Shown here: piece by piece, positions 21,054 to 64,000 of the stretch
How the letters are laid out: every line of letters begins with the position of its first letter
How positions within the stretch are numbered: the first letter of the stretch is position 1
NCBI RefSeq assembly: GCF_001441535.1
Contig: NZ_LMAU01000004.1
Coordinates: 62,001-126,000 of the forward strand
DNA length: 64,000 nt
Source: Tsuneonella troitsensis
GTDB taxonomy: Bacteria > Pseudomonadota > Alphaproteobacteria > Sphingomonadales > Sphingomonadaceae
Direction of reading: 5' to 3'
The notes under the pieces: model-generated
What the model saw: only the letters and a program-made list of their open reading frames with translations
The model's database searches: none
Told to the model about the DNA's origin: nothing
Program-made: the position numbers and the translations under genes

Positions 21054-21264
21054 GTGGGGGTTCTGGCCCTCGCGGGGCGGCGGTGCAAGGCGGCGAACGC
21101 CGAGGGCATGTCACACATGTCACAGTGTCCAGGAGTGAAACTGGTGTTCCCCTCGATCCGCCGTTCTGTATGCGCGATTGGGGGTCGTAGCGGGTCGGCC
21201 ATGAGCACCTGTTGTCACAGGCGCGGGTGTGTAGGAAAATGTCCAGCCGCACCGATTTCGCGCG

Positions 21265-21303
21265 CAAGGCTGCCTGTCGGCAAACGACCCCATATCGGAC
21301 ACC
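21265..21303 (+). repeat. Dispersed repeat, copy A
   Basis: Contains GGCTGCCTGTCGGCAAACGA followed by CCC and, three bases later, ATCGGACACCCG. The first part matches 63139-63162 with two or three differences. The second part resembles TTTCGGACATTCGG near 63684-63697, at the far side of the cassette gene there. See the finding on this repeat family. Confidence 0.65.
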
Positions 21304-62393: not shown

Positions 62394-62485
62394 GGTGTGC
62401 GGATCCTTCAGACGTGCCCCCTGTCGGGCATTCGGCGCGGCTGCTAGGGGCTGGCCGCAGGTTTGGCAAGATTGGGAAAGCGCAC

Positions 62486-63103
62486 GTGGGTTTGACCGCA
62501 AGCCAGATCAGGGACGGCCTCGACGCGGTCGCGGCGCAGGAGCCGGCGATGGCCCGCGCGCTGGCCGCCGCCGGCTATCCCGAACCGCGCATCCGCGAGC
62601 GCGGGCACGTGACGCTGCTGCGCGCGATCGTCGGCCAGCAGGTCAGCGTCGCCGCCGCCGCGAGCATGTGGAACAAGCTGGCCGCAGAAGTGGGCGAAGA
62701 TGTCGATCCCGCCGAACTGCTCGCCCGCGATTTCGACACCCTGCGCGCCTGCGGCCTGTCGCGCCAGAAACAGGGCTATGCCCGTTCGCTGTGCGAACTC
62801 GTGGCGGCGGGCGCGATCGATTTCGACGCCCTCCCCGCCGACGACGAGGAGGCCATTGCCCAGCTCACCCAGATCAAAGGCATCGGCCGCTGGACCGCCG
62901 AAATCTACCTCCTGTTCGCCGAGGGCCGCCCGGACATCTGGCCCGCCGGCGACCTCGCCGTGCAAGCGGGCTTGGGCAAGATCCTTTCGCTCGAGGAGCG
63001 ACCCAGCGAAAAAGAGACCCGCGCCCTCGCCGAACCCTGGCGCCCTCACCGCGGAGCGACGGCGATCTTCACGTGGCATTGCTACAACAATCCCGCGCTT
63101 TGA
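62486..63103 (+). CDS. DNA-3-methyladenine glycosylase (AlkA type, HhH-GPD)
   Basis: Base-excision repair enzyme removing alkylated purines. The 205 residues contain HVTLLRAIVGQQVSVAAAAS near residue 40, the helix-hairpin-helix LTQIKGIGRWTAEIYLLF near 130, and the catalytic Asp in IWPAGDLAVQAGLGK. The N-terminal domain of E. coli AlkA is absent, as in many alphaproteobacterial forms. The start is GTG 62486, or TTG 62492, after GGGAAAG. The last nine codons and stop are duplicated 764 bases downstream. Confidence 0.9.
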   Translation: MGLTASQIRDGLDAVAAQEPAMARALAAAGYPEPRIRERGHVTLLRAIVGQQVSVAAAASMWNKLAAEVGEDVDPAELLARDFDTLRACGLSRQKQGYARSLCELVAAGAIDFDALPADDEEAIAQLTQIKGIGRWTAEIYLLFAEGRPDIWPAGDLAVQAGLGKILSLEERPSEKETRALAEPWRPHRGATAIFTWHCYNNPAL

Positions 63104-63112
63104 GATTGTCGG
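63077..63112 (+). repeat. 36-base direct repeat, left copy
   Basis: Begins CATTGCTACAACAATCCCGC and ends GATTGTCGG. It covers the last nine codons and stop of the glycosylase gene plus nine bases. It is identical to 63841-63876. Confidence 0.9.
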
Positions 63113-63121
63113 GGATCGGTT

Positions 63122-63168
63122 GCCATCGAGCGGGTCGAAAGCTGCCTGTCGGCTAACGACCCGATGGC
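63122..63168 (+). repeat. Dispersed repeat, copy B (REP-like hairpin)
   Basis: Inverted repeat: CGGGTCG (63131-63137) pairs with CGACCCG (63157-63163), and GCCATCG (63122-63128) with a GATGGC arm (63163-63168) across a small bulge. The loop GCTGCCTGTCGGCTAA is shared with copy A at 21265-21288. It could also serve as the glycosylase terminator. Confidence 0.6.
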
Positions 63169-63199
63169 TGCCATCAGCTGTTTGCGTTATTCTCCTCCG

Positions 63200-63664
63200 A
63201 TGAAAGCGACCTTCTTGGCCTTCGCGCTGTTAATCGGTGGAGCCAGCTCGGAGCGGCCCTCCGTTCGAGAAGTAATCATGCGCGTGATCGAGTCCGCCGT
63301 GGAACTACCCGTCGGGGCTGAGGCACTTGAAGAATACTCGCGCAACTACGCCCTGCGGCCCGACGGAAAGGTGATGGCGGTTTATGTCACTCCCCTGCCA
63401 ACAGAAGCGCGCGGGAGCGAGGACGGCTGCGAAGTGATGCTCGAAGACATGGATTCGCGACCATGCACCGAGGCCGAGGAGGCAGAGATTGCATCCAATG
63501 ACGAAGTGATGGCAGCTTCTTTCGGACAAGCCGACCAGTCGCGTTGGTTCGACGACTACCGCGATTTGCCAATGATTATGGATGGCGGCTGCAGTCTGAT
63601 TGAGATCATATACGATCCCCAGTCACAGCTGATTGAAAGCACGCAATGTAACGGGGAGGCCTGA
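63200..63664 (+). CDS. Exported hypothetical protein inside the repeat-bounded cassette
   Basis: 154 residues. Signal peptide MKATFLAFALLIGGASS, then VELPVGAEALEEYSRNYALR and GKVMAVYVTPLP. The C-terminal part contains RWFDDYRDLPMIMDGGCSLIEIIYDP and ends CNGEA. The DGGC...CNG pair of cysteines recurs in a family of small exported sphingomonad proteins that I know only as hypothetical. GC content is visibly lower than in neighbouring genes. The ATG follows TCTCCTCCG, a poor ribosome-binding site; the start is supported by the signal peptide. Confidence 0.65.
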   Translation: MKATFLAFALLIGGASSERPSVREVIMRVIESAVELPVGAEALEEYSRNYALRPDGKVMAVYVTPLPTEARGSEDGCEVMLEDMDSRPCTEAEEAEIASNDEVMAASFGQADQSRWFDDYRDLPMIMDGGCSLIEIIYDPQSQLIESTQCNGEA

Positions 63665-63840
63665 CGGCCGCTTCCCACCCCAATTTCGGACATTCGGCCC
63701 TGTTGCCAGATTTCCTCAAAGCGAACATCGGCATTACGGAATGGCACCGGATTGTTTCAGCGTTCATCGAGAGTCGCCTTGGGGGGAAACCCGCTCGGAA
63801 AGCGTATTTTCACAGATTTTGTGGGGGATTTTCCGCCCTC

Positions 63841-63876
63841 CATTGCTACAACAATCCCGCGCTTTGAGATTGTCGG
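63841..63876 (+). repeat. 36-base direct repeat, right copy
   Basis: Identical to 63077-63112 and 764 bases away. The next gene starts seven bases after it. Nothing in the 176 bases between the cassette gene and this copy looks coding. Confidence 0.9.
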
Positions 63877-63882
63877 ATAGTT

Positions 63883-64000
63883 ATGAATAGCTCCTCTTTC
63901 CGCATCAACCCGGCGCTCGATCCGGAAGATCTGTCACGGGCGTTCGCTATGCGACGCCGCCTGCACATTCCGTCCTTTCTCGAACCCGAATGCGCCGGGA
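63883..64000 (+). CDS. 2OG-Fe(II) oxygenase-like protein, N-terminus only
   Basis: 39 codons to the window edge: MNSSSFRINPALDPEDLSRA, then FAMRRRLHIPSFLEPECAG. The pattern INPALDP...R.HIP.FL...A is that of sphingomonad 2OG-Fe(II) oxygenases of the prolyl-hydroxylase type, whose catalytic residues lie further on and are not visible here. The gene was presumably next to the glycosylase gene before the cassette between them appeared. Confidence 0.55.
   Translation, partial: MNSSSFRINPALDPEDLSRAFAMRRRLHIPSFLEPECAG

Follow-up and report, generated by a model that had tools for sequence, protein, structure and literature searches.

The question raised by this locus is how 728 bp of comparatively GC-poor DNA came to lie between two perfect copies of the end of a repair gene, and to what kind of genetic unit the inserted DNA belongs. 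The locus lies at the right end of the window, by which the whole 64-kb stretch of DNA analysed is meant (Table 1). The 36-base perfect direct repeats described in the original prediction were confirmed by sequence comparison and by a scan of the entire window, the two copies being identical over 36 bases at a start-to-start spacing of 764; since they form the sole exact direct repeat of at least 22 bases in the window, chance is ruled out as their origin. With up to three mismatches allowed, the window's own genome has two matches to the repeat's first 22 bases, both at the alkA locus, which is interior to a 366,857-bp contig and away from its edge. The left copy does form the end of an AlkA-type gene, with eight codons (HCYNNPAL) rather than the nine initially proposed, followed by the stop and nine bases beyond it. 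The right copy, as predicted, stands just upstream of the next gene, with six bases between its end and the start codon (ATG) of a gene for a 2OG-Fe(II) oxygenase. The low GC content attributed to the insert also held (57.3%, against 66.9% for the window), as did the lack of an integrase between the repeats: none was found among the ORFs there, and the main ORF, whose product resembles an exported protein at its N-terminus on reading of the sequence, has no Pfam match.

Table 1. Features of the alkA locus and of a related site in the window, numbered from the first base of the window.
Feature	Position	Strand	Basis
AlkA-type HhH-GPD DNA glycosylase gene (host gene)	62414..63103	+	Pfam PF00730, E 2.1e-16
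Left 36-bp copy: last 8 codons of alkA, TGA and GATTGTCGG	63077..63112	+	sequence identity
3'-half of the dispersed element	63113..63174	+	nhmmer E 1.8e-5, 23.5 bits, with model 81-122 aligned at 63133-63174 and weaker likeness further left by eye only; reversed-sequence control 0 matches
Cassette ORF, small exported-looking protein	63164..63664 (alternative start 63200)	+	no Pfam match, no PADLOC match
5'-half of the dispersed element (model 1-65), 3 bp past the ORF stop	63668..63731	+	nhmmer E 2e-7, 29.8 bits
109-bp stretch, without matches in other family genomes, that separates the 5'-half from the right repeat	63732..63840	.	
Right 36-bp copy	63841..63876	+	sequence identity
Start of the 2OG-Fe(II) oxygenase gene, which runs past the window (L032:1884-2615)	63883..64000	+	Pfam PF13661/PF13640
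Another 3'-half of this element, standing alone at a different place in the window	21254..21300	+	nhmmer E 7e-4

Both sides of the cassette ORF carry parts of a dispersed element. When bases 63665-63840 were used as the query, their first ~20-65 bases were matched at a wide variety of places in 34 of 298 family genomes, the window's own among them, and matches in the other family genomes were confined to the first ~65 bases. Reading of 20 such places yielded a composite element ~122 bp long, in which conserved boxes mark the middle as well as either end. A profile trained on 18 copies, 16 of which belong to the loci searched, returned 115 matches at E ≤0.01 and none in reversed sequences, across 36 sources (35 loci and the window, 653 kb) picked because they had matches. 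In a wider survey, which scored 17 candidates per genome and therefore gives lower bounds for each, the element was present in 68 of 197 relatives, all 68 from the window's family, with at least 12 copies in the window's own genome. The 3'-half motif by itself was found 10 times in that genome and 16 times in the backward control, and only the longer element model beat its controls. The REP-like hairpin of the original prediction is located in the 3'-half of this element; its conservation as a hairpin gained no support, covariation being no better than in shuffles and RNAalifold giving no pairs. Assignment to a known Rfam family was set back (no family matched in four element loci at E 1, and the window gave two matches only, far below gathering thresholds), and searches of the open-licence literature brought up no description of the element or its rows. 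The element is also present on two named plasmids, both from Sphingomonadales hosts: pYT40 of Porphyrobacter sp. YT40 holds a serine-hydrolase gene between a 3' part and a whole element, and one from Novosphingobium sp. ES2-1 has a lone 3' part. The pYT40 cassette (L203:2470-4627, NZ_CP041223.1) lies on a plasmid typed as mobilizable and adjoins a gene annotated as aminoglycoside 6'-N-acetyltransferase. The half-element of the window found no match in the plasmid search.

The arrangement of the copies is informative as to what they delimit. Thirty-three rows with at least two elements on one strand were recorded, usually running from a 3'-half through an ORF, a whole element, a further ORF and so on to a 5'-half, all in a single orientation. 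For half-element classes defined after the matches had been seen, first, middle and last places were taken by 16, 4 and 4 of the 3'-halves and by 1, 1 and 12 of the 5'-halves (Fisher p 6e-5). Sixty-five intervals were delimited, 10 of which were excluded for an ill-fitting bounding half-element; in the 55 kept, the window included, the median gap was 508 bp, and the longest ORF was co-oriented with the elements in 38 and anti-oriented in 17. The co-oriented ORFs are closely fitted to their surroundings, the distance from the stop to the following element being -3 to 26 bp for 29 of the 38, and the start lying 15 to 46 bp past the previous element for 21. Nine of 19 scanned interval ORFs (two of the 19 anti-oriented) had a Pfam match and ten had none, the recognised cargo comprising glyoxalase, alpha/beta hydrolases, acetyltransferase, DJ-1/PfpI, PIG-L, MgtC, DUF1275 and FG-GAP. 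Transposase-like genes, IS6-type and IS3-type by reading of their translations, stand directly behind a row or cassette in two loci (L155:10662-11378 and L011:2675-3430). With its 3'-half, ORF and 5'-half in this order, the alkA insert is very probably a gene cassette of the same element-bounded family. The larger finding is the family's set of such cassettes, to which the insert appears to belong.

The same observations can be read differently. The element might be a mere dispersed intergenic repeat of the BIME or ERIC kind, perhaps a hairpin acting as terminator or promoter, that accumulates in the gaps separating small genes. Illegitimate recombination would then have brought in the insert and duplicated the 36 bp, and nothing would move as a cassette; we regard this as rather unlikely. 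The short pieces of the element at many places in 34 of 298 genomes, the window's own included, are what such a repeat would leave, and neither a recombinase nor covariation was found; moreover, the relative G005 is cassette-free yet not empty behind alkA. Relatives of the cassette ORF, which is present in 15 of 249 family genomes when the window's own is counted, also fit it in part, as eight of their 16 loci are without an element at E 0.5 and a clear element just upstream was seen only in L053 and L055. Eleven aligned proteins of this ORF family conserve GGC and a later C(N/S). The closest relative (68% identical; G092, L053) occupies a different site, flanked by genes for a hydrolase and an EngB-like GTPase, both named by reading or by a scan, with a 3' part of the element (model 36-121) upstream and a weak 5' part (E 0.25) downstream. 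What an intergenic repeat accounts for poorly is the polarity of the rows, with half-elements at opposite ends, and the occurrence of different cassettes behind alkA in two species of the genus.

A comparison across genera also counts against a simple dispersed repeat. In alignments of 958-971 bases, a hydrolase cassette shows 86-91% DNA identity among G092, G070 and G095, which represent three genera, and it is the only block common to their loci at E 1e-10. For the engB region of the same three genomes, the main aligned piece is 71-73% identical (one pair has an extra 331-bp piece at 81%), and the EngB protein of G092 shares 69% identity with its G070 counterpart and 72% with that of G095. 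Across genera, the unit with element cores at its ends is thus much better conserved than the engB region. By eye, the boundaries of the hydrolase block coincide with GCGGAC-like element cores. The block is inverted relative to its neighbours in G095 (L190), and in G070 (L178) the nearest detected upstream element lies ~600 bp from it. Recurrence was seen for two further cassette ORFs as well, with identities of 54% and 34%, which is less telling, and the plasmid search with the hydrolase returned nine distant relatives at 60-80%. From sequence comparison of this kind, the chance that the cassette moved by site-specific recombination may be put just short of even.

The 3' flank of alkA was then compared among relatives, 54 of 60 of which had an alkA match (own genome included). 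The distance from alkA to a downstream SDR gene ranges from ~80 bp to ~2.2 kb in eight genus members and amounts to 1.6 kb in the window's genome and ~4.5 kb in G005. The SDR gene follows alkA directly in G004 and, by reading, in G019, and an S9-peptidase-like gene lies 3' of alkA in several genomes, including G003, G006, G007 and G008 (reading of translated starts). The alkA-SDR stretch is a gene-turnover hotspot in the genus, its contents varying from locus to locus (L032 of the window's own genome, L033-L040, L205). Because this content is variable, the oxygenase and the cassette may both be additions in the window's lineage. An empty site, with alkA, a single 36-mer and the oxygenase, was seen neither in the flanking DNA of alkA at 29 further loci or in eight longer flanks nor around seven oxygenase relatives; with no single-copy alkA-oxygenase junction found, the direct empty site is missing. 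Those seven loci (49-62% identical; flanks of 1.5-4 kb) contain neither alkA nor the SDR gene, and a search of genome contigs for the oxygenase gave 33 loci, none with the element at E 0.1, three of which (L096-L098) were checked and are without alkA.

Another species of the same genus, G001, carries a different cassette behind alkA, with an ORF 61% identical to one in a row of G136; the DNA similarity to that row starts within the element, and the half-element of G001 is weak on its own (E 0.07). When the cassette-free G005 is compared with G001, 62 of 72 bases agree through TGTCGG and 20 of 60 past it. As G005 has other genes 3' of alkA, it may not show the ancestral site. G001 and G005 (L011 and L013) have an altered alkA 3' end in common, reading YYAVGSDPV in G001 instead of HCYNNPAL, and in G005 an in-frame stop precedes it.

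This flank may also have had another history, in which the cassette was first to settle behind alkA and a fragment from a sister strain, with the alkA tail and the oxygenase, was later imported with the help of homology, joined illegitimately on the left and recombined at the SDR gene on the right. The adjacency of alkA and SDR in G004 and, by reading, G019 would make the oxygenase too a possible addition in the lineage; the seven oxygenase-relative loci without alkA or SDR agree with this, and the 109 bp ahead of the right copy, which are unmatched in other family genomes, would be compatible with an illegitimate join. Such an import needs a sister strain with an alkA-oxygenase junction, none of which was seen in the loci examined, and two events instead of one, and is in our judgement unlikely.

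The repeat itself was first interpreted as the attL/attR pair of a site-specific insertion. A classical integrative element that has lost its integrase by deletion, with the 36 bp at the alkA 3' end as its att core, would explain a perfect repeat at a gene end, the preservation of the gene and the low GC content of the insert. The 728 bp contain no integrase or phage gene, however, and bases 63060-63900 are unmatched in 50,697 phage records; an exact 21-base scan of viral contigs was also negative. An exact pattern for the alkA 3' end, which a decayed second copy would escape, was matched by 128 of 397 family genomes (the other 269 being uninformative), and the end was doubled in the window's genome only, with none of the other 127 showing a second copy. 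The ends of the insert are, besides, those of the cassette rows, which as a rule are without such repeats: in 450-bp flanks of the 33 rows with at least two elements, the window has its 36 bp, L168 a 34-bp repeat and L177 an 11-bp match, and the other 30 have none of at least 11 bases. On these grounds the classical att remnant was set back as highly improbable, and a flanking direct repeat was rejected as a general feature of the cassettes. In L168 the 34-bp GC-rich repeat lies on either side of a single cassette, ~90 bp before and 119 bp after the element halves in cassette orientation; it looks like another GC-rich dispersed (hairpin) repeat. The proposal of a non-autonomous cargo unit at the alkA 3' end thus gains from the variable alkA-SDR stretch and the different cassette in G001, and the repeat pair as the typical attL/attR of such a unit is not supported. 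A tandem duplication with subsequent replacement, the other option of the original prediction, is a possibility as well. Among the 33 rows the 36-bp duplication is peculiar to the alkA site, and the other rows give no explanation for it. It must stem from a special event, whether an incoming unit with an alkA tail, a duplication on insertion, or an oxygenase gene that was imported later together with an alkA tail. The first two of these together, that is, a tail copy brought by the incoming unit or duplicated as it inserted, can be advanced tentatively, at somewhat less than even confidence.

Taken as a whole, the reading of the alkA insert as one unit of the family's integron-like mobile cassette system, with a recombinase acting in trans, is slightly favoured on the sequence evidence. 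The cassette would travel as a circle with one whole element, which would recombine via that element with short chromosomal sites, the recombinase being supplied in trans. The alkA 3' flank could be one such recurrent site, with TGTCGG at the junction; the 36-mer ends in TGTCGG, about 35 bp from the element's own TGTCGG in the window. The alkA tail might have come in with the unit, picked up when it had previously been excised imprecisely beside alkA in a sister strain; otherwise it would have been duplicated during insertion, alkA staying intact in both cases. Several findings count against this cassette reading, namely that motif scans of 35 loci gave no dedicated recombinase, that the hairpin shows no covariation above shuffles, and that the junction points differ, being at TGTCGG in G001, in the middle of the element in many rows and at GCGGAC in the hydrolase block. 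To these are added the eight of 16 ORF-relative loci without an element, the 17 of 55 anti-oriented ORFs and a 36-mer that other rows do not explain. A broader form of the cassette reading, in which an integron-like gene-capture system with its own three-part ~122-bp sites and a trans-acting recombinase circulates in the Sphingomonadales and uses alkA as a recurrent secondary site, is possible, with a likelihood somewhat below even. If the rows really move, Alphaproteobacteria have their own route of gene capture, which uses new recombination sites and draws on a pool of cassette genes without assigned function. The element-bounded cassette also offers a testable explanation of the alkA finding at a defined site.

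Candidates for the recombinase were sought in several ways. The integron integrase model TIGR02249 had no match above its curated cut-off in 45 genomes, and none in 14 controls, so that no positive control was available; matches, scored in pieces, fell below the threshold in all 45 genomes and all 14 controls. The two best of these sub-threshold matches came from G218 and G138. In L170:868-2976 and L171:1456-3510, tyrosine recombinase genes are followed, by reading, by IS91-like transposase genes, and the best TIGR02249 matches look like recombinases of IS91-like elements, as judged from their sequences. Crude motif scans of the 35 loci gave one convincing tyrosine recombinase adjoining a row, in L158 (13630-16084, minus strand), where tRNA-Pro, the recombinase and then a row of three intervals follow one another; no other row was found to border on a recombinase. 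Its position next to tRNA-Pro suggests an island integrase. A tmRNA beside this row was rejected as a candidate, ARAGORN reporting tRNA-Pro and no tmRNA.

Among known systems, integrative elements with attL and attR share with the alkA locus the direct repeat that restores a gene's 3' end, alkA being intact; they differ in the integrase, which is absent between the repeats here. REP, BIME, ERIC and RU repeats are dispersed, intergenic and partly palindromic sequences of ~100-130 bp, and the element resembles them in these features; such repeats are not known to delimit cargo genes in polar rows that terminate in half-elements. The dif (pdif) modules of Acinetobacter plasmids are described as cargo genes flanked by short sites and served by a recombinase in trans (PMC6449649), and the element cassettes are alike in having cargo genes between sites and, as proposed here, a recombinase in trans. 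Xer recombination takes place at a dif site of 28 bases, and the dif sequence given for Novosphingobium in PMC2731167 is AT-rich and by eye unlike the GC-rich ~122-bp element; an Xer/dif site was accordingly set back, on a by-eye comparison of the consensus with this one Novosphingobium dif.

A close likeness is seen to integron cassette arrays, in particular CALINs (clusters of attC lacking IntI). As in these, compact single ORFs stand in one row, many closely followed by an element of ~120 bp that resembles a recombination site; the cargo is diverse, about half of it without a Pfam match, and one unit is common to several genera. The terminal boxes of attC read RYYYAAC and GTTRRRY, which the element consensus does not fit by eye, and no IntI exceeded the cut-off in the 45 genomes considered here (the controls were also below it). 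Since the ends of rows are often half-elements, the junction lies inside the element, which is a further difference from integrons. According to a statement in PMC9668308, integrons are entirely absent from Alphaproteobacteria. The arrangement by which integrons are recognised, co-oriented cassettes each made of an ORF and one site, was found in this family, in 33 rows, with 38 of 55 ORFs co-oriented and 29 of those 38 stopping near an element.
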